The notes below the pieces were generated by a model. The model did not search any database, was not told where the DNA came from, and worked only from the letters and a program-made list of their open reading frames with translations. Source: a virus. Taken from it: a DNA stretch of 28,993 nt. Location of the stretch: the IMG/VR virus record IMGVR_UViG_3300020141_001130, positions 1 through 28,993 of that record; one strand, 5' to 3'. The translations under genes were made by a program, and so were the position numbers. Position 1 is the first letter of the stretch. Each line of letters opens with the position of its first letter. Shown here in pieces: positions 3,411 to 16,616 of this stretch.

Positions 3411-3438
3411 ATTATGTGATTGTTTTTATTTTTGTCGA
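3411..3438 (-). promoter_or_regulatory. putative promoter for the kinase gene
   Basis: On the minus strand: TCGACA (3433-3438), 16-base spacer, CATAAT (3411-3416), then ATAAATAG and the ATG. The -10 equals that of the rIIA element. TATAAATA here (3404-3411) also matches the T4 late-promoter consensus, but it is too close to the ATG for that use. Confidence 0.35.
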
Positions 3439-6400
3439 GGATATTTCTGGGGTTCTCTTTAAGTATATCACTCTACATTCCAAGTGGTCAAACTTGCCAA
3501 CCCAATCGTCCCCCATAATCAAAACGTGGACATCATATTTTTTTATGTCTGACATTTTTTGGTTCCAAGAAGTTTCCGGTATTATCTGGTCTACTATTTT
3601 TAAAGATTCCAACCATTTTTTTCTATGATTGTATGAAAATTTACTTTGCTTGTTCTTTTCCGAGTTAAAGCTGTCCGTTGAAAGTCCAACAATCAACTTA
3701 TTACCAAAACTTTTTGCTCGGTGCAATAGTTCAATGTGGCCGTAATGAAAAGTATCAAATGTACCATACGTTATGACATTGATTTGTTTTGGTGCACTTT
3801 TTTCTGTCATCCACTTTTCTACTATTTTTTTCTGCTCTTCGGGATCAACCAAATAACCGGTATCATAATGATTGACTGGTGAATATGCCCAATCCCATTC
3901 TTTGATTGGAGTTTTCCAATTAGTTCCATATTTTGTTATTACATATTCCATTTCGTTAACCGGTACAAAGAAGTTGTGATCCAAAAAGGTAATTTCTTTG
4001 GTATTGAATGGAGTATATCTATAATCTATTCGCTTATTATTTTTGAATGCGCAGTGATATAAAAACGCATCTTGCTTGTAAAAAAAGAATATATCTGTTT
4101 TTATGTTGAATCGCAGCAAACTTATTTCAAATGAATTTTGAGGATATCCGAACGTGTGTTTTATCTCAAACCCGTTTGATTTTATAGCAGCAAGTACTTC
4201 TGGAGAAAAATCCGAGAACATTATACCAATATCCGTATCCAAGTCGTGTCCAATAAAATCTTTTTCTCTCACATATCCAAGCAAAGTTCCGTCTTGTAGC
4301 CAATACGGAACCTTGAAAGATCTCAGTATTTTATCCAAATCGGATAAATTTTTTAAAGCAATCCATTTGTCAAATCGTTGTTTTGGAAGTGATGGATTTA
4401 TCGTCAATACATTCACAAAGTTCACATAATAATTTATGTTTTTTCGTTTGATCCAATCATTAAACATATCCATTGCTCTGCTCCTGTATGTGTTGTATGT
4501 GGCATCTCTTAATTGTTTATGAACAATGGAGACATTGTCCAGATACCCAACTTTTAACTTGTCTCTATGTTCAAAAAAGAATGCGGCGTGTTCTGCTATT
4601 TTGAGTTTATTATCCCAACCAAATTTTTTTATTTTTTCTGTTTTTGCAATAAAAAAATTTAAAATAAGATGGGATTGCTTGTAATCTCCCATATCTTGGT
4701 ATCCTCGTTCAGTAACGACCGCTTTATTCTTTTCATCTATGGAAAAATATCCATAATACTGAACCGCTATCTTTTTTTCCAATACTTGCCCGCCGAGAAC
4801 ATCAACGTCGTTTCTTTCAATTATTTCATAAAATTTTTCCAAACAAGTTTCTTCGGTAAACTCAAAATCGTCGTCCAACAATACAAAATATTTTGTTTTT
4901 ACTTTTGACACTCCAAAATTTCTTCCCGCCGACACTCCGGAGTCAAATTCTATATTGTATGTTTCTACATTTGGATAATCAAATTGTAATGGAGGGTTTG
5001 AATCATCTACAATAATAATTTGTATGGTTGGGTAAAACTTTCGAATGCTCAATATCAAATTTTCAACACAATTTTTGCGTATAAAAGATTTTACCAACAG
5101 TGTCACATTTTCATTAAGCTTTTTGTGATTTTCTATTGCGGCTACATTGGAAAATTTTGTCAAATCCCATTTCACCAGTTTTGCATAATATTCCACATTT
5201 CTATTTTCTCTTATGTCGGATTCTCCAACTTCTGCTATTACTATATTTGGAAAAAACGTATAACATTGAGATTTGTATTTTTCTTGCAATGCCGATATAA
5301 GGTTATCTACGGGTTTTTGTTTGGTCAATGCCACCTCTATTATTTCATCGTAAATAGAAGAATTGATTGCCCATGCAAATGTACCCAGTGTATTTTTACA
5401 TTCATAAAATCCGTTATTAGGCGTGATATTTTCCCAATCAAACTGACTTGCGCCTAGATATAATAATTTCCACGGCAAATTTTTTATATCTTGAATTTTA
5501 TTTTTAAAATCTTCACTAATCGCGACATCGTCTTCAAATATCAATATTTTATTAAATCCATTTACTTTTGCGTCTTTAATTATCTCTATATGACTCAATA
5601 AGCAAGCAAGGGCTCCGGTGGATTTTATTGATAGAGGTATTTTTAACTTTTTGTTATTTTCCACAAAACGCACATCTGCGATAGATAGATCTTTTTTATC
5701 AATGGCATTGAATCTTCTCACGCATATTCCATGTTTTTTAAATTCGGCAGATACTATTTTCCACCTATCGGATCTGCGTTTTAAGTTCAAACAATATATT
5801 TGATCAAAATACAAATTTATATCTATAACTTGGTGCTCTTCAATAATTGTTGGCGTTGCCGTCAATGCTGCCGACGGTGTAGGTGTCGGAGTTGGTCTAG
5901 CCACATCATGCCATAAATGTATTCCTTTATGATCCATCTCTTGCACGAAAATATTTTTCGACTTTAAGCGTCTATCAAATTCTATATCCTCTTTTCCCCA
6001 ACCAAACAAACTTTCATCCATTCCACCAATATTCAAAAATGCATTTTTTTCAAATATAAATGACAAAGCTCCATACAAAGAAATATATTCGGCGGATTCG
6101 TCTTCATATGACACATTCAATTTTTCTCCCCGTAATATTCGTGTGCTATCGTCGCTCGTTAATTTTTTTCCTGTTGAGTATGGTTTTATAAAATCTTCTG
6201 TCCATTCAACACCAAACACGTTATTAAACTTCATATAAAAATCAACATCATTTACCCAAACATATTTTGTGTTTGCGTGATTTTTTACTGCCCAGTTTAT
6301 TATACCAGTTTTATGAAACTCTTCACTCTTCGAGACATATAATAAATGTTCAGAGTTAAATTCTTTCAAGTCCAGTGATGTAGCAGATTCTTTAACTTGC

Positions 6401-6525
6401 TCAACCACCAATACTCTAGCACCTGTTTTTATGATATGAGGCAAAATAAATTTTAAATTATTCAACCTATCAATTCCCAATTTATAAATTGGAACTATAA
6501 ATGTAACGTCGTTGGCAGAAATCAT
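3412..6525 (-). CDS. five-module glycan enzyme: GT-A, GT25-like, GT2/GT12-like, LicD-like transferase, cytidylyltransferase
   Basis: 1037 residues, reading as five enzymes in one chain. (1) About 5-208: a GT-A glycosyltransferase with VNDVDFYM (DxD at 92-95) and GGMDESLFGWGKEDIEFDRR (167-186), typical of galactosyltransferase C-domains. (2) A Thr-Pro linker, about 209-226. (3) About 240-440: GT25-like, with YCLNLKRRSDRW, GALACLLSHIEII and LIFEDDVAIS (328-337). (4) About 472-690: GT2/GT12-like, with IIIVDDSNPP, SAGRNFGV, VLLDDDFEF (548-556) and EHAAFFFEHRD. (5) About 715-880: LicD/fukutin-like phosphotransferase, with LQDGTLLGYVREKDFIGHDLDTDIG (743-767). (6) About 915-1037: TagD-like cytidylyltransferase, with TYGTFDTFHYGH (HxGH at 927-930) and RTPEISSTKIK. 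The last module would make a CDP-activated alcohol and the LicD module would transfer it, while the GT modules build the sugar part. The order and the combination are visible; the substrates are inferred. No membrane segment is seen, so it should act in the cytoplasm on a phage protein, DNA or nucleotide sugar. Confidence 0.85.
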   Translation of the reverse strand: MISANDVTFIVPIYKLGIDRLNNLKFILPHIIKTGARVLVVEQVKESATSLDLKEFNSEHLLYVSKSEEFHKTGIINWAVKNHANTKYVWVNDVDFYMKFNNVFGVEWTEDFIKPYSTGKKLTSDDSTRILRGEKLNVSYEDESAEYISLYGALSFIFEKNAFLNIGGMDESLFGWGKEDIEFDRRLKSKNIFVQEMDHKGIHLWHDVARPTPTPTPSAALTATPTIIEEHQVIDINLYFDQIYCLNLKRRSDRWKIVSAEFKKHGICVRRFNAIDKKDLSIADVRFVENNKKLKIPLSIKSTGALACLLSHIEIIKDAKVNGFNKILIFEDDVAISEDFKNKIQDIKNLPWKLLYLGASQFDWENITPNNGFYECKNTLGTFAWAINSSIYDEIIEVALTKQKPVDNLISALQEKYKSQCYTFFPNIVIAEVGESDIRENRNVEYYAKLVKWDLTKFSNVAAIENHKKLNENVTLLVKSFIRKNCVENLILSIRKFYPTIQIIIVDDSNPPLQFDYPNVETYNIEFDSGVSAGRNFGVSKVKTKYFVLLDDDFEFTEETCLEKFYEIIERNDVDVLGGQVLEKKIAVQYYGYFSIDEKNKAVVTERGYQDMGDYKQSHLILNFFIAKTEKIKKFGWDNKLKIAEHAAFFFEHRDKLKVGYLDNVSIVHKQLRDATYNTYRSRAMDMFNDWIKRKNINYYVNFVNVLTINPSLPKQRFDKWIALKNLSDLDKILRSFKVPYWLQDGTLLGYVREKDFIGHDLDTDIGIMFSDFSPEVLAAIKSNGFEIKHTFGYPQNSFEISLLRFNIKTDIFFFYKQDAFLYHCAFKNNKRIDYRYTPFNTKEITFLDHNFFVPVNEMEYVITKYGTNWKTPIKEWDWAYSPVNHYDTGYLVDPEEQKKIVEKWMTEKSAPKQINVITYGTFDTFHYGHIELLHRAKSFGNKLIVGLSTDSFNSEKNKQSKFSYNHRKKWLESLKIVDQIIPETSWNQKMSDIKKYDVHVLIMGDDWVGKFDHLECRVIYLKRTPEISSTKIKTIT

Positions 6526-7935: not shown

Positions 7936-8328
7936 TTAGCTTGCGGAGGCAGCTACGGTGTTTGTAGTTGCGGCAGCATTGGCAGTGACAGGAATCACGG
8001 ATTTGTTCTTCTTGTCGGTATTAACCTCGGCAACCGAAAAGGTTGTCAGCGGCTCAGAGGCGGAAATAACTCCCGCAGCTTTGGCAGCTTCAAGCAATTC
8101 TTTGCTAGGATTTGAGCGAGAGAATACAAGTCTTGGACGACCAATTGCGGGCTTGATTTTACCAATGACCATAACATCCTTGTTTTCAACAGCCTGCTTT
8201 ACACGAAAGCGAAGTGTGATATTAACCGCGTCTGGATACTTACCTTGAATGTCATCAATTGTAAAGTGGCTTGTGGGCCATTCAATGACGAACGAGTTTT
8301 TCTTACTTGTTTTATTGTTATTATTCAT
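7936..8328 (-). CDS. hypothetical protein, possibly DNA-binding, Ala/Thr-rich tail
   Basis: 130 residues. After a polar N-terminus (MNNNNKTSKKNS) comes a compact domain at about 13-93, including FTIDDIQGKYPDAVNITLRFRVKQAV and GKIKPAIGRPRLVFSRSNPSKELLEAAKAAGV. The helix-helix-strand arrangement and the basic GRPRLVF segment are compatible with a winged-helix-like fold, but I do not recognise a family. The tail (PVTANAAATTNTVAASAS) is low complexity. It follows rIIB by 38 bases and is closed by the 7873-7906 terminator, so it is probably the last gene of the rII transcript. The upstream sequence is A-rich (ACTAATAAATAAACAT before the ATG) and has no Shine-Dalgarno. Confidence 0.7.
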   Translation of the reverse strand: MNNNNKTSKKNSFVIEWPTSHFTIDDIQGKYPDAVNITLRFRVKQAVENKDVMVIGKIKPAIGRPRLVFSRSNPSKELLEAAKAAGVISASEPLTTFSVAEVNTDKKNKSVIPVTANAAATTNTVAASAS

Positions 8329-11926: not shown

Positions 11927-13933
11927 TCAACTTTCTTTGGAAAGGAACATTTTATTCAATGTATGTGCAATCTGTACAACGTTCTGTACATCAACGAATT
12001 GAGCATCTTTGCCATACATATTACGAAACAAGTTGGAATTTTTATCAGATCGCTTGTTATTCACATTATTACATTCAATAAAATAGCTCAAAATAGACAC
12101 TCCAATTTCACGAATTTTATTGATTTGTTTCTTTGTATGTTGGGCTGCGACGTTTCCATAATAACCCACACCAAATGCAGGTTCTCCGTCCGATAGATTT
12201 ACAAAATAACTATCCATTTCATATGTAGAAGCCGGAACGTGTTTTATGATTGCTTGAAATGCCAAGCCTTCTGGTGTTGATCCGTGTGGAAACAACAACG
12301 GAAATAGTTGAACAATCTTGTTGAACTTATCTTTGCGTGAGTCATATGCCATCACAATATACGGAGTTTCATTTCCACGGTTCATACAAACTCCACTTCT
12401 AAATGAAATGGTCAAAGCTACATTGTTTATCATGCTAACGGCTTTGGCAATTGCAACAAGTGTTGTCATTGTTTTTTCCCACTTTGTTTCCATTGAAGAA
12501 GAAGCGTCCACAGTTACATGCAAATGAGCATTCTTATATTTGTCTGTGGTGGTTTGATAAAACAAATTTTCTCCTTGGAATCCAATAGATGCCAACAACC
12601 GCTTGTCAATCTTACCTTTTTGTAGGCGAGTAAATTTTGTGGTTTTTACTTCACTGCGAATTTGCAATTTTCGACCAAGCATAGTTCCGAGAATAATTCC
12701 CTGCTGCACTCCCCGCGAAGAAGCTGGATTTCCAGTTTCACGGGAAAACTTACTGGTGTAAGGAAATTCCGATGTCATCATAAGTTCACGGGTCATGTTT
12801 TTTACCAAGACACAATCAACTTTTGGAACAGTTTCATCTCCCACTTGCACAATATCAACCGAGCTTTGTTCAAGAATTTGAAGTTTCTTGATAGTGTCCT
12901 TATCAAAAGGAGATTGTTGAACTTCACGAGAAACAATTTGTTCTTGTTTATCAATGAGTTTATCAACCTTCTTTTTCTGTGATTCGGTCAGATCTTTGGA
13001 CGGATTTTTATCCGGAGTTTCGTCGGCGTCGTCTTGAATAGGATTTGCAGAAGATGGCGTACCCCCCAATACATCGTCGATATCGTCGTTGGACTCTGAC
13101 TGCTCTGATTTATCATCAGACGGTTCATCGCCACCGGATTGCTTGTCTTGATTGTTTTGTTCGTCCTGCTTCTTAGGTTTGTCTTTTTCTTCTATAACAC
13201 TGTTGATAATAATCTCGGTGATTTGATATGCTAGTTCCAAACGATCCTTTGGATTTGATAGTTCAGCACGCAGAATATTGTTCAAATTCAACACCTCACT
13301 AATCTTGCGTAATGCAGGAAGTGCGTCCAAATCGGTATTTGCATTTGTAATATTGGTTAGACGAAATTTATAATTTTTTACAGTGGCATTTCTATAAGCA
13401 TCCGACTTCAATGCTTCACCAATTTCTGGCAAATTAAAATAGCGGTCATATAATGCTTGATAATATCCACGATAACCCGGTGCACTTTCATACGCCCAAG
13501 CATCAATATATCTATCCTCAACTACATTGAGAATATATTTTGCCAAATTACCAATATAGTTTTGATCAAAATGACCCTTGGCAGCGGCAGTCAAACTGCG
13601 AGGAATTTTTCCCCACATGGTCTTGATCAAATCAAAATCGCTTTTGACAATGTGCATGGCTTCATGCAACGACAATCCAACCGTGGGATCAAATTCACCC
13701 TTGGTCAATTCTCCGCCAATGTAAATAACTTTACCATCGGTCATGGAAGTTGAATTCTCGGCAAAACGAACAGGAATGTTCTTGCCGGTAAGAATATACA
13801 CGAAGTTTCCAATAGCACGGCGATACGCCGACAGTTTTAACAACGCCATTGTAGAACCAGCATCAAACTTTTGAACATTAAAATCGTCGCCAAGCCAAAA
13901 CTTGGAATGATCTGCCAAAACTTTAGTTTTCAT
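11927..13933 (-). CDS. metallopeptidase-VWA domain protein (CobT/MoxR-partner type)
   Basis: 668 residues. An N-terminal zinc-peptidase-like region has LSLHEAMHI (HEAMH, 90-94) and NVVEDRYID (136-144), the pattern of peptidase domains found in CobT-like VWA proteins. Residues ~250-325 are a highly acidic, Gln/Asp/Ser-rich disordered linker. The C-terminal von Willebrand A domain has a complete metal-ion-dependent adhesion site: DASSS (D476, S478, S480), STPEG (T553) and SDGEP (D582). VWA proteins of this kind work with AAA+ ATPases such as MoxR or CobS to remodel or activate a substrate. The start ATG overlaps the stop of the AAA+ gene by one base (TAATG), so the two are translationally coupled. 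The target is unknown. The cobaltochelatase role of CobT is not implied, because no chelatase subunit is seen. Confidence 0.88.
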   Translation of the reverse strand: MKTKVLADHSKFWLGDDFNVQKFDAGSTMALLKLSAYRRAIGNFVYILTGKNIPVRFAENSTSMTDGKVIYIGGELTKGEFDPTVGLSLHEAMHIVKSDFDLIKTMWGKIPRSLTAAAKGHFDQNYIGNLAKYILNVVEDRYIDAWAYESAPGYRGYYQALYDRYFNLPEIGEALKSDAYRNATVKNYKFRLTNITNANTDLDALPALRKISEVLNLNNILRAELSNPKDRLELAYQITEIIINSVIEEKDKPKKQDEQNNQDKQSGGDEPSDDKSEQSESNDDIDDVLGGTPSSANPIQDDADETPDKNPSKDLTESQKKKVDKLIDKQEQIVSREVQQSPFDKDTIKKLQILEQSSVDIVQVGDETVPKVDCVLVKNMTRELMMTSEFPYTSKFSRETGNPASSRGVQQGIILGTMLGRKLQIRSEVKTTKFTRLQKGKIDKRLLASIGFQGENLFYQTTTDKYKNAHLHVTVDASSSMETKWEKTMTTLVAIAKAVSMINNVALTISFRSGVCMNRGNETPYIVMAYDSRKDKFNKIVQLFPLLFPHGSTPEGLAFQAIIKHVPASTYEMDSYFVNLSDGEPAFGVGYYGNVAAQHTKKQINKIREIGVSILSYFIECNNVNNKRSDKNSNLFRNMYGKDAQFVDVQNVVQIAHTLNKMFLSKES

Positions 13934-14895
13934 TAGAAAGGGGGTAGACTGCTGTCGTCTTTGTTGTTGTTTGAGTTGAACACTTTGTTCAGTGGGTCGG
14001 ATTTGACCGGAACATGCTTTTGTACAACTTGTTTGACCATTGTGCGTTCACTGTCCAAACCACCGTCGTCTGGATAGTCTGGGTAAATCACCATTTCAGC
14101 CAACTCTACCAAACCAAATCCATCAACGGTGAGTTCAGCCATTTCTACTACAGAACGAGTAGAAACAAAACGACTCAACTTTCCTTGCTTTGTAAACTCA
14201 CGAGTTGTAGCAGAAATTTGAGCAATCTTGTCCATGAGATTCATATCAGCATCGGGACAAACCACCTTTATCAACTTCAGTTCTTCTTCGGAAGAAAGAA
14301 TATCAACTTCAATCTTAACCGTGAAACGATCAGTCAAAGCTTTGTCCATGACTCGTGTGGCGGTATAATCATTGCCAATATTTGCCGTAGCAACAAATGA
14401 TACACCATCAGCAACTTTTACAATCTCACTGCCAATCTTTTCATCCAAACGCAAATAACGCTGAATATAATCAAGTGGCGTCAACAAAATATTCCAAGCA
14501 TCTGGATGAGCACGAGATAGTTCATCGAGGTGAATAATGCTGTTTGGTGTACGCAATGCTTTTACAAATGGAGATTCATCAAATAATGTGCCTGTTTCTT
14601 TGTTAAAATGTGTATTGCCAATGAGTGTAGCACGGGGGTCTTGAGTAGCACCCATATTGAGATAAAAATAGTTCTCACGACGCTTGAGAGCATCAACCAA
14701 GCATTGAACTGCCAATGTTTTGCCTTGACCAGCAGGTCCAAGCAACAGAATATTTTTGCCACGCAAAGCACTGCGTACAAGATACTTCCATTTCAGTTCG
14801 CCCATAAACAGCTTATCGGGCTTGAGCGAATAGCAAGTATCAATGATGTCTTTGACTTCGTTGGATGAATATTTCTTTGTTTTACTCATGTACAT
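13933..14895 (-). CDS. MoxR/CobS-like AAA+ ATPase
   Basis: 320 residues if started at 14895. AAA+ motifs: Walker A GPAGQGKT (53-60), Walker B SIIHLDELSR (D124-E125), sensor 1 in VATANIGND (N172), and an arginine-finger-like ALTDRF (R190). The architecture fits the MoxR/CobS clade, whose members act as ring ATPases on a VWA partner, and that partner is encoded next with a one-base overlap. CobS-like genes are common in T4-type phages of marine bacteria. The start is ambiguous. ATG at 14893-14895 (MYMSK) has AAGAAGG at a good distance, whereas ATG at 14887-14889 (MSKTKK) would sit exactly at the expected start of transcription from the promoter-like element upstream. Confidence 0.92.
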   Translation of the reverse strand: MYMSKTKKYSSNEVKDIIDTCYSLKPDKLFMGELKWKYLVRSALRGKNILLLGPAGQGKTLAVQCLVDALKRRENYFYLNMGATQDPRATLIGNTHFNKETGTLFDESPFVKALRTPNSIIHLDELSRAHPDAWNILLTPLDYIQRYLRLDEKIGSEIVKVADGVSFVATANIGNDYTATRVMDKALTDRFTVKIEVDILSSEEELKLIKVVCPDADMNLMDKIAQISATTREFTKQGKLSRFVSTRSVVEMAELTVDGFGLVELAEMVIYPDYPDDGGLDSERTMVKQVVQKHVPVKSDPLNKVFNSNNNKDDSSLPPF

Positions 14896-14983: not shown

Positions 14984-15499
14984 TCACCATTTTCTACAGC
15001 TCCAAAATCTTGCTTTTGTTCTTGGACCTGGATTTTCGCAATGATGTCTTGCTCTGAAACTCTTACGACGTTTTGGATTGCTCTTTTTGATACGCATGTT
15101 TGGATCACCAAAATTGACTTTCTTTACATTACCTGTCGTTGGGTTCTTAACAAACACTTTAAACTTTTTTACATCGCCACGCATTGGCTTACCAAGTTTT
15201 ACTTTGCGACCACGATATTCTGCTTCTTCTAATGTAGCATCAGCATTCATATCACCATACATTTCATAAAACTCATCACCTTCACATGTATGTTCATCAC
15301 CTTCCGGAATCATATCCCATTTGGTTGATTCATATATTTCTTCAATATCTTCTTCTTCATTTACAGGCACACAATTTGGAACTTCTTTACCACCCTTGTT
15401 CTTTGTGCCATATGCTTTATAGCCTTTCCAACATGGATTTTCCATTTTAACTTCTTCTATAGCTTCAATAATTAATTGTTTTAGCTCAGATTTTTTCAC
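14984..15499 (-). CDS. small virion-type protein with tag-like N-terminus and basic Cys/His tail (GTG start)
   Basis: 171 residues, starting at GTG (15497-15499), with AAGAAGAAA 7 bases upstream as a ribosome binding site. The N-terminus MKKSELKQLIIEAIEEV is a charged amphipathic helix containing an I-x-E triplet, followed by CWKGYKAYGTKNKGGKEVPNC. A middle acidic part precedes a basic C-terminal block (KFKVFVKNPTTGNVKKVNFGD, then KSFRARHHC, NPGPRTKARFWSC, KW). Both segments recall recurring blocks in uncharacterised proteins of marine T4-like phages; I give this from memory of the pattern, and the function is unknown. The Cys/His spacing at the C-terminus could bind metal. The terminator at 14936-14966 follows. 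Confidence 0.75.
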   Translation of the reverse strand: MKKSELKQLIIEAIEEVKMENPCWKGYKAYGTKNKGGKEVPNCVPVNEEEDIEEIYESTKWDMIPEGDEHTCEGDEFYEMYGDMNADATLEEAEYRGRKVKLGKPMRGDVKKFKVFVKNPTTGNVKKVNFGDPNMRIKKSNPKRRKSFRARHHCENPGPRTKARFWSCRKW

Positions 15500-15530: not shown

Positions 15531-15616
15531 TTTCTAGTTTGTATTGATTCAATCAACTCCAAGTGTTGGGCGTCCGGATGTTTCACCCGATTGAGAATAT
15601 TCTTGTTTAGCTTGTT
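15503..15616 (-). pseudogene. leftover C-terminal coding tail ending in PALKEKKK
   Basis: A 37-codon open stretch in the +1 frame relative to the 15549-15905 gene. It ends NRVKHPDAQHLELIE, then SIQTRNPALKEKKK and a TAA stop. Its last eight residues equal the end of the 15909-16616 protein. It has no start codon of its own in a sensible position and overlaps the 3' end of the 15549-15905 gene. It is most simply read as the remnant of a duplicated C-terminus. A frameshifted product of the 15549-15905 gene ending here cannot be excluded. Confidence 0.55.
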
Positions 15617-15905
15617 TCATAGCTGTTATTGCCCAACTCTTTGGAATATTTAACTTCTTTACAATGTCCTCAAGATTTTTTAAATATTGCTTTGCTTCTG
15701 GGTATTTATCAACTATTGCCTCCGCTGCTTGTTTGGCGGCGGCTTCAAATTCAGTCCGTTCTTGAGAATTCAATGGAACTTCTGGGATATATTTAAATCG
15801 AGGAGTTCTCCAGTTTCCGCCGGGAATTTGTATCTTCCGTGGAGGCTGATATGCCATTTCCTGTACAACTTCTTTGATTAGTGATTTTAGCTCAGATTTT
15901 TTCAT
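15549..15905 (-). CDS. small virion-type protein with MKKSEL N-terminal tag
   Basis: 118 residues. The N-terminus MKKSELKSLIKEVVQEM is a near copy of that of the 14984-15499 protein, with an I-K-E triplet at 10-12. Then comes a Pro/Arg-rich segment (PPRKIQIPGGNWRTPRF) and a helical, Ala/Lys-rich C-terminal half (RTEFEAAAKQAAEAIVDKYPEAKQYLKNLEDIVKKL). No family is recognised. The start ATG lies 3 bases after the stop of the 15909-16616 gene (TAATTTATG), and the ribosome binding site AAAGAAAAGAAGAAA is inside that gene's last codons, so translation is coupled. The C-terminus is suspect: a +1 frame through the end stays open and continues into a tail identical to that of the upstream neighbour. 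Confidence 0.72.
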   Translation of the reverse strand: MKKSELKSLIKEVVQEMAYQPPRKIQIPGGNWRTPRFKYIPEVPLNSQERTEFEAAAKQAAEAIVDKYPEAKQYLKNLEDIVKKLNIPKSWAITAMKQAKQEYSQSGETSGRPTLGVD

Positions 15906-15936
15906 AAATTATTTCTTCTTTTCTTTGAGAGCAGGA
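15885..15936 (-). repeat. 52-base direct repeat, copy 2
   Basis: Partner of 15479-15530 (51 of 52 identical). Here it spans the end of the 15909-16616 gene (PALKEKKK, stop), the ribosome binding site and the ATG plus first codons of the 15549-15905 gene. Confidence 0.95.
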
Positions 15937-16616
15937 GTGTCTTTTAGTTTTGTGGTAAGCTTGTCTGAACTTTCCATATCTTTGTCAGTTTTTAAGTGAG
16001 ATGTTTTCGCATCAGCTTTGTTCTTTAAGATACGGTCAATAATCTTTTCAATCTTATCTACCATTTCTCCACCCATTGATGCAGATACATCTTTGTTGAT
16101 TGGACTATTTTCTTTGTCTGCTTTAACATCTGCTTTTTCAGTATTGTCATCTGCAATATCAATCTGCAATTCTTCATCAGCATCATCCATAGTATCATTT
16201 TCTTTTTTCTCATCAACCTTGGCTGGTTTCTTTCCAAATCCTTTTAGACTTTTGTCATATGCTTTTTGAACATATGTCTTTTCAGAATCACCTGCATGTT
16301 TCTTTACAAGTTCCATAGCAGCTTCAAGTGAAACACCACGAGCAATCTTGCGTTCAGATTCATTGGTAACTGATACAACATCATAGTTGTCTTCTGCGTT
16401 CTTGCTCAACTCAACCTTTTGATTGTCATCACTTCCAGCAGTTTTGCCAGTTCCAATGATGTTGCCAGCATTATTTTTACCCATTGCTTTGCCCAAGGCA
16501 TCAGAACCTTTTTTGTCGGCATTATCTACGTGTACTTGTACACCAAATTGATTGTTGGCAATTTCTTGTAATACTAATTTTTTAATGGCTTTTTTGATAA
16601 GGTCTCTGTTGTTCAT
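15909..16616 (-). CDS. acidic/lysine-rich probable virion or scaffold-type protein
   Basis: 235 residues, highly charged. The N-terminus MNNRDLIKKAIKKLVLQEIANN is an amphipathic helix with an L-Q-E triplet. The middle contains a possible small folded region (NYDVVSVTNESERKIARGVSLEAAMELVKKHAG). Residues ~145-235 are Lys/Asp/Glu-rich and probably disordered or coiled (DDADEELQIDIADDNTEKADVK), ending PALKEKKK. The composition resembles phage core, scaffold or internal head proteins, but no family is recognised. It opens the three-gene group 16616-14984. The upstream 86-base gap holds the nrdA terminator and no clear Shine-Dalgarno sequence. Confidence 0.72.
   Translation of the reverse strand: MNNRDLIKKAIKKLVLQEIANNQFGVQVHVDNADKKGSDALGKAMGKNNAGNIIGTGKTAGSDDNQKVELSKNAEDNYDVVSVTNESERKIARGVSLEAAMELVKKHAGDSEKTYVQKAYDKSLKGFGKKPAKVDEKKENDTMDDADEELQIDIADDNTEKADVKADKENSPINKDVSASMGGEMVDKIEKIIDRILKNKADAKTSHLKTDKDMESSDKLTTKLKDTPALKEKKK

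Follow-up and report, generated by a model that had tools for sequence, protein, structure and literature searches.

A MoxR-type ATPase paired with a metallopeptidase-like VWA protein in a tailed phage: a putative ATP-driven protein remodeller, unlikely to be a cobaltochelatase

What does a phage gain from a MoxR-type AAA+ ATPase whose gene overlaps that of a protein combining a metallopeptidase motif with a VWA domain? The question is raised by the IMG/VR virus record IMGVR_UViG_3300020141_001130, of which the 28,993 bases analysed are referred to here as the window. The window comes from a tailed phage whose replication genes are T4-like; family matches revealed a DNA polymerase B, a RecA-like recombinase, a gp32-like protein, a DnaB-type helicase and a 5'-3' exonuclease, and a ribonucleotide reductase (RNR) with a separate small subunit is also encoded. 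Gene pairs of this kind have been published under two readings. In group 2.2 jumbo phages, a MoxR gene beside a vWA protein with an N-terminal metallopeptidase was described, and virion assembly with processing was proposed (Iyer 2021, PMC7824862). Such viral pairs, among them cyanophage cobS with the 'peptidase' gene next to it, were called 'cobST' and assigned to vitamin B12 synthesis, the peptidase label being taken as a mistake (Liu 2021, PMC8651126). The architecture is therefore already known from Iyer 2021. On balance, the pair in the window is best read as a NorQD-like ATP-driven protein remodeller with a zincin-like domain, for which a ring, a pore finger, zinc binding and cleavage are predicted.

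Both open reading frames (ORFs) were found where the first-pass annotation, made from the DNA letters alone, had placed them. The junction on the coding strand reads ...TTTCTAATGAAAAC..., in which stop and start share one base, so the overlapping TAATG described there was recovered.

13933..14895, minus strand: MoxR-type AAA+ ATPase of 320 amino acids (aa), NorQ/CobS-like, phrog_249 (AAA_5 E 7.8e-17; phrog_249 E 2.6e-24; NorQ E 1.1e-8).
14716..14739, minus strand: Walker A motif GPAGQGKT of the ATPase, residues 53-60 (K in 117/117, T in 116/117).
13931..13935, minus strand: TAATG, overlap of the ATPase stop and the VWA start, read from the sequence.
11927..13933, minus strand: metallopeptidase-like and VWA protein, 668 aa (ORF call and family alignments).

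Relatives were collected from IMG/VR using the VWA protein (8 loci), the ATPase (best 80 of 197 loci) and a 40-row alignment (best 80 of 585), with a further scan giving the best 80 of 440; the counts therefore describe close relatives. The contigs from the ATPase and 40-row-alignment scans overlap, and two loci (L089, L090) were left out of the alignments A1 and A2. The ATPase gene lay directly upstream of the VWA gene on the same strand in 79/80 VWA loci, at gaps of -41 to +47; in the remaining locus (L174), the contig extends upstream for only about 280 bp. Among 80 ATPase loci, 59 had the VWA gene in the flank: 13 in the order ATPase then VWA (12 within 6 bp; 1,853 bp in L030) and 46, from marine relatives, in the reverse order with gaps of 37-4,212 bp. 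The flanks of the other 21 lacked it. A whole-contig search covering 15 of these revealed a strong VWA match elsewhere in seven, a weak one in one (5.1e-6, uncounted) and none in seven; the contigs without a strong match, the longest being 108, 60, 48 and 40 kb, may be incomplete. The genes were adjacent in the huge phage LR756508; Microcystis phage Mel-JY01, with 13.0 kb between them, was an exception to adjacency. A scan of genomes with alignment A1 gave four loci in metagenome-assembled genomes, three of them also carrying the ATPase gene; these are suspected to be phage contigs in bins.

Since the linkage outlasts both a change of order and separation, the ATPase and the VWA protein are better regarded as a functional pair than as accidental synteny. 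Independent occurrence had been named as the result that would speak against the pairing, and the genes were instead found to travel together. The overlap hints at translational coupling, but this is qualified by the reversed order and gaps in the marine relatives. In LR756508 (L089), a second ORF of 657 aa (4340-6313) with weak similarity to the ATPase (E 1.2e-8) was observed just upstream of the pair.

The ATPase matched AAA_5 together with a CbbQ_C-type domain in Pfam, and a search of PDB sequences revealed NorQ as its best solved relative (E 1.1e-8). The full set of ATPase motifs claimed in the first-pass annotation could be confirmed: the Walker A lysine, the Walker B DE, the sensor-1 N and the arginine of DKALTDRF were present in 117/117 unique ATPases 290 aa or longer, and the sensor-2 R in 116/117. 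The gene is under purifying selection, with nonsynonymous divergence (pN) of 0.012-0.189 vs synonymous divergence (pS) of 0.254-0.68 against three relatives.

In ten relatives (L098, L099, L100, L104, L107-L111 and L149), the ATPase gene was divided into two ORFs immediately after Walker A. A conserved tail of about 26 residues closes the first ORF, and one of about 13 opens the second; in these tails pN (0.20-0.38) was below pS (0.33-0.88). A GIY-YIG endonuclease ORF lay between the halves in 9/10 split loci and was not detected in L104. The split may be stable and functional, judging from these tails. A group I intron in split ATPase relatives was rejected, no Rfam match having been obtained on L006, L008 and L009.

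The VWA protein on its own had no Pfam family at E <= 1 and no PHROG match. Its layout comprises an N-terminal HExxH domain, an acidic linker and a C-terminal VWA domain with a metal ion-dependent adhesion site (MIDAS). The motifs lie as follows.

13652..13666, minus strand: HEAMH, residues 90-94 (H, E and H kept in 109/109).
13502..13528, minus strand: NVVEDRYID, residues 136-144 (N, E, D, R, I and D in 109/109, partly by recruitment).
12494..12508, minus strand: MIDAS DxSxS, residues 476-480 (D, S and S in 109/109).
12275..12277, minus strand: MIDAS T553 (109/109; TPEGL was among the search patterns).
12188..12190, minus strand: MIDAS D582 (109/109).

Residues H90, E91, H94, N136, E139, D140, R141, I143 and D144, and the MIDAS residues D476, S478, S480, T553 and D582, were present in all 109 unique relatives with a length of 580 aa or more, in agreement with the HEAMH, NVVEDRYID and complete MIDAS reported at first pass. 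One of the two scans behind this set used the patterns EDR.ID and TPEGL, and those columns were thus partly fixed; HExxH was not a pattern. In an earlier set collected without patterns, H90, E91, H94, N136, E139, D140 and D144 were kept in 53/54 rows, the exception being a truncated row. An HExxH followed by a downstream acid, as in the gluzincin type, is thus invariant (H90, E91, H94, E139/D140), and E139 or D140 is the candidate third zinc ligand. Purifying selection was also evident in this gene (pN 0.041-0.247 vs pS 0.341-0.735 against three relatives). With the residues conserved among relatives and both genes under purifying selection, the pair and its motifs lie far beyond chance.

Structure models were made with AlphaFold2. 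The full-length VWA protein reached a mean predicted local distance difference test (pLDDT) score of 74.4; in its model a disordered acidic linker separates the N-terminal domain from the VWA domain.

13178..13882, minus strand: N-terminal zincin-like domain, residues 18-252 (modelled alone: pLDDT 92.0, predicted template modelling score (pTM) 0.87; BlaR1 zinc protease Z 5.7).
13001..13177, minus strand: acidic low-confidence linker, residues 253-311 (pLDDT <50).
12542..12700, minus strand: conserved region before the VWA core, residues 412-464, a putative pore finger by analogy to NorD.
11930..12541, minus strand: VWA domain, residues 465-668 (NorD VWA 9qh6_G, Z 20.6, root-mean-square deviation (rmsd) 3.9).

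The VWA half of the model matched NorD of the NorQ-NorD complex with a Foldseek E of 8e-8, and in VIA with the Z and rmsd listed above over 243 aligned residues (model 359-664). The best solved VWA matches in VIA were NorD structures (Z 20.6, 19.0 and 18.6), followed by the Rea1 MIDAS domain (Z 18.6). Within the segment before the VWA core, G440, I442, D443 and R445 were invariant in 40/40 sequences. For the N-terminal domain, VIA rows 1-9 were all zinc metallopeptidases, as were 13 of the 31 rows in total: BlaR1 matched over 130 residues, selecase and abylysin at Z 4.3-4.5, jannalysin at 3.8, aminopeptidase N at 3.5 and two M4 enzymes at 3.3-3.4. The first-pass description of a MoxR-VWA pair with an added peptidase-like domain is supported.

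The zinc motif was also kept outside the window family, so that HExxH occurs in three divergent phage families. In the cyanophage type, H, E, H and N..ED..IE were present in 63/65 rows, the other two being gapped, and cobS lay downstream in 69/80 loci, 10 of the 11 others ending within 1.1 kb. In the SSU5 type, the first H was kept in 27/29 rows and the E and second H in 28/29, the remainder being gapped, with the ATPase downstream in 31/32. HExxH was carried by 13 of 16 named proteins from phages or plasmids. The N-terminal domains appear to be related: hhalign of the window family gave E values of 2.7e-10 for Bacteroides phage BS162P1 (a scan with this Bacteroides-phage protein found one locus), 2.2e-9 for the SSU5 type, 1.2e-7 for CRP-810/T5S1, 2.1e-5 for Mae-Yong1326-1 and 3e-5 for S-IOM18, with a weak value for ICP2 (9.1e-4, probability 23%). 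These values are single comparisons of small alignments; no direct relation was detected to cellular CobT (0.36), NorD (0.59) or DUF2201 (0.022). The DUF2201 (PF13203) proteins resemble the window protein in having an HExxH domain followed by VWA, but they are about 390 aa long and carry N..AD instead of N..EDR.ID, and neither PF13203 nor PF09967 matched the window VWA protein at E <= 1.

How the pair may work is suggested by NorQ-NorD (PDB 9qh6), which it resembles in the AAA+ sequence, in the VWA fold including the pre-core segment and in the order ATPase then VWA. In the NorQD mechanism, a NorD finger occupies the pore, the linker is stretched and iron is inserted (PMC13036017). Because the parts follow the same order (N-terminal domain, linker, invariant pre-core segment, VWA), we infer the same motor action. 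The ATPase would form a MoxR-type ring, in which the VWA protein would dock by its conserved pre-VWA segment, the presumed finger, and its C-terminus. By analogy, ATP hydrolysis would turn the VWA part relative to the N-terminal domain, stretching the acidic linker, and the MIDAS site, the N-terminal domain or both would hold the client. The zincin-like domain could then grip or cut the remodelled client. Since HExxH and the downstream Glu/Asp are strictly kept in the window family, zinc binding by the machine is probable, as is processing, or at minimum gripping, of its client.

Several observations weigh against this NorQD-like reading. Generic VWA domains scored Z 14.5-17, and NorD was just 3-4 units higher; the finger region of the model is of low confidence. 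The zincin likeness of the N-terminal domain is weak, its best Z of 5.7 falling in the range (<8) that can arise by chance, and Foldseek against the PDB returned nothing at E <= 0.001 among 24 rows at E <= 10. The N-terminal domain of NorD was not detectably related to that of the window (the hhalign E of 0.59 was obtained with two NorD sequences), and HExxH was missing from both NorD proteins. Three of the 16 named proteins (nickie, ANB28 and G20c) lack HExxH yet keep the ATPase neighbour, so peptidase activity appears to be dispensable at least in these. Loss of HEAMH in most homologues had been named at first pass as an argument against peptidase activity; the motif was retained in the window family and in two other phage families, while the three losses speak against a universal need for catalysis.

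The neighbourhood bears on what the client could be. In the window, the VWA gene is followed downstream by rIIA (phrog_612, E 9.8e-98) and rIIB (phrog_609, E 5.7e-72), the neighbours named at first pass. However, among the 79 ATPase-then-VWA loci only 21 had rIIA and 19 rIIB downstream; the rII neighbourhood is therefore clade-specific, and rII was rejected as a functional partner. A 130-aa protein followed downstream in 74, and a gp41-like helicase (66), nrdB (58) and nrdA (56) were found upstream. Few of these neighbours recur in the 46 VWA-then-ATPase loci, one of which (L020) has DNA polymerase and Hsp20 nearby. DNA polymerase III alpha closely follows the pair in five named relatives (SSU5, RHEph10, nickie, ANB28 and B1VFA), and a sliding clamp and clamp loader lie near the S-IOM18 pair. 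A replication-phase context is common to the examined pairs, and a virion context is not.

This context makes the Iyer 2021 proposal, in which the pair would act in virion assembly as a chaperone and as a protease on structural proteins, an unlikely alternative. The architecture is the same as the published one: both pairs place a MoxR ATPase adjoining a vWA domain fused to an N-terminal metallopeptidase, and the window pair has the complete MoxR motifs, VWA with MIDAS, N-terminal HExxH (109/109) and adjacency (79/80) that fit the published description of the jumbo type. The window pair is a divergent member of this known kind. A precedent is given by ATV p618/p892 (cited in PMC7824862 and in PMC7159879), and the lysine-rich amphipathic N-termini of three neighbouring proteins might be capsid-targeting tags. 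The placing in virion assembly misfits the window, where the pair adjoins no structural gene and the neighbours, nrdAB and a helicase, like the replication genes of the named relatives, point elsewhere.

A second alternative would keep the NorQD analogy closer, with the pair inserting metal into a phage metalloenzyme such as the small subunit of the class I RNR and the N-terminal domain only binding metal. Iron insertion by NorQD and the frequent upstream nrdA and nrdB agree with it, but the window RNR proteins found no match within the 6 kb flanks of the 46 VWA-then-ATPase loci (nrdA 0, nrdB 0), no RNR is annotated beside the SSU5, ICP2 or S-IOM18 pairs, and such a role would not require a strict HExxH. 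This alternative is accordingly quite improbable.

The remaining proposal, from Liu 2021, is that viral CobST recruits host CobN to raise vitamin B12. Some matches fit it: the phrog_249 family of the ATPase is labelled 'porphyrin biosynthesis', the SSU5-type and CRP-810 proteins match both CobT Pfam domains (PF06213 and PF11775) well over the cut-offs, and CobN (PF02514), present in 5/14 control genomes, was found in Synechococcus elongatus, so hijacking would be possible in cyanobacteria. The curated models gave a different picture. TIGR01651 (CobT) matched 3 of 40 window-family relatives, at best with E 0.0076; against its cut-off of 759, phage relatives scored 84-179 bits vs 1166 and 839 for two cellular CobT. 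For TIGR01650 (CobS, cut-off 559), phage ATPases scored 60-82 bits, and the window ATPase had no match at E <= 0.001. Among the relatives, the SSU5-type pair occurs in 219/5,426 E. coli genomes, on plasmids and on no chromosome, and CobN was not found in the E. coli control genome. Within the 29 kb of the window, the part of the phage genome covered, no CobN was found either. The window RNR, with its separate small subunit, is of class I type, which is B12-independent. In the Caulobacter vibrioides control genome, CobT scored over the curated cut-off with no CobN family match, a case of CobT without CobN in a cell. The pair is unlikely to be a cobaltochelatase, in line with the first-pass doubt about cobalt chelation, and the B12 proposal is the least probable of the readings considered.

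Cellular CobS-CobT nevertheless shares the AAA+/VWA pairing, and its N-terminal domain appears to be distant kin through the SSU5/CRP-810 group. PF06213, the CobT N-domain family, matched SSU5 (E 2.1e-37), CRP-810 (2e-15) and RHEph10 (6.5e-6) with no match for ICP2, and hhalign linked the SSU5/RHEph10/CRP-810 group with cellular CobT (E 4-5e-5, probability 68-70%), again in single comparisons of small alignments; for these reasons a distant relationship to cellular CobT, which lacks the zinc motif, is probable. HExxH was found in none of the four cellular CobT compared. Seven CobT ORFs had been extracted, of which three were dropped when groups were compared: those of Methylobacterium (apparently wrong reading frame and no MIDAS), Cupriavidus (lacking its N-terminus) and Photobacterium (diverged, its sole HExxH-like string at residue 366 being outside the N-domain). 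Against the PDB, CobT structure 9uka was absent among the fold matches, which carries no evidential weight, alignment A1 reached it at E 0.56 through the acidic linker only, and Mae CobT and the S-IOM18 peptidase gave low-complexity or unrelated matches only.

Other genes around the pair are described for completeness. The 130-aa protein could be a third member of the module or plain synteny.

7936..8328, minus strand: 130-aa protein (74/79 ATPase-then-VWA loci; directly 3' of the VWA gene in rII-less relatives), with the core ITLR.R..A...GRPK/R.

Three small proteins upstream of the ATPase (14984-15499, 15549-15905 and 15909-16616) have similar short lysine-rich amphipathic N-termini of the form MKKSELK.LI.E...E and are possibly tagged or packaged proteins. 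At 3412-6525, a 1,037-aa protein matched several glycosyltransferase families and LicD, with a C-terminal cytidylyltransferase domain.

Beyond the window, the viral 'cobST' of Liu 2021 share with the pair the AAA+/VWA neighbours and related N-terminal domains (SSU5 type and S-IOM18), but strict conservation of the zinc motif across these phage families departs from the published reading. The evidence suggests that the Iyer 2021 and Liu 2021 groups saw one superfamily, which would reconcile what each has published on this kind of gene pair. The present addition is that HExxH is kept in the cyanophage and SSU5-type 'CobT' and absent from four cellular CobT; no paper comparing viral with cellular CobT for the zinc motif was found in the open-access literature, a scope outside which most subscription journals fall. 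One published list of core viral auxiliary metabolic genes includes cobS (PMC9301287), and whether cyanophage cobS takes part in making cobalamin is described as unknown (PMC9983427). More tentatively, and with less confidence than for the window pair, the phage genes named cobS/cobT, with cyanophage cobS and the adjoining 'peptidase' gene among them, could form one ATP-driven metallopeptidase-VWA superfamily that remodels and cuts a protein during genome replication and is not concerned with B12, cellular CobT being a same-fold relative that lost the zinc site. This wider implication is testable, and the conserved zinc motif offers a simple mutational test. The strict zinc-peptidase motif in the partner of cobS, which the compared cellular CobT lack, is a warning against assigning such genes to B12 metabolism; the widespread phage cobS/cobT genes may be protein-remodelling or protein-cutting machines and not vitamin B12 enzymes.

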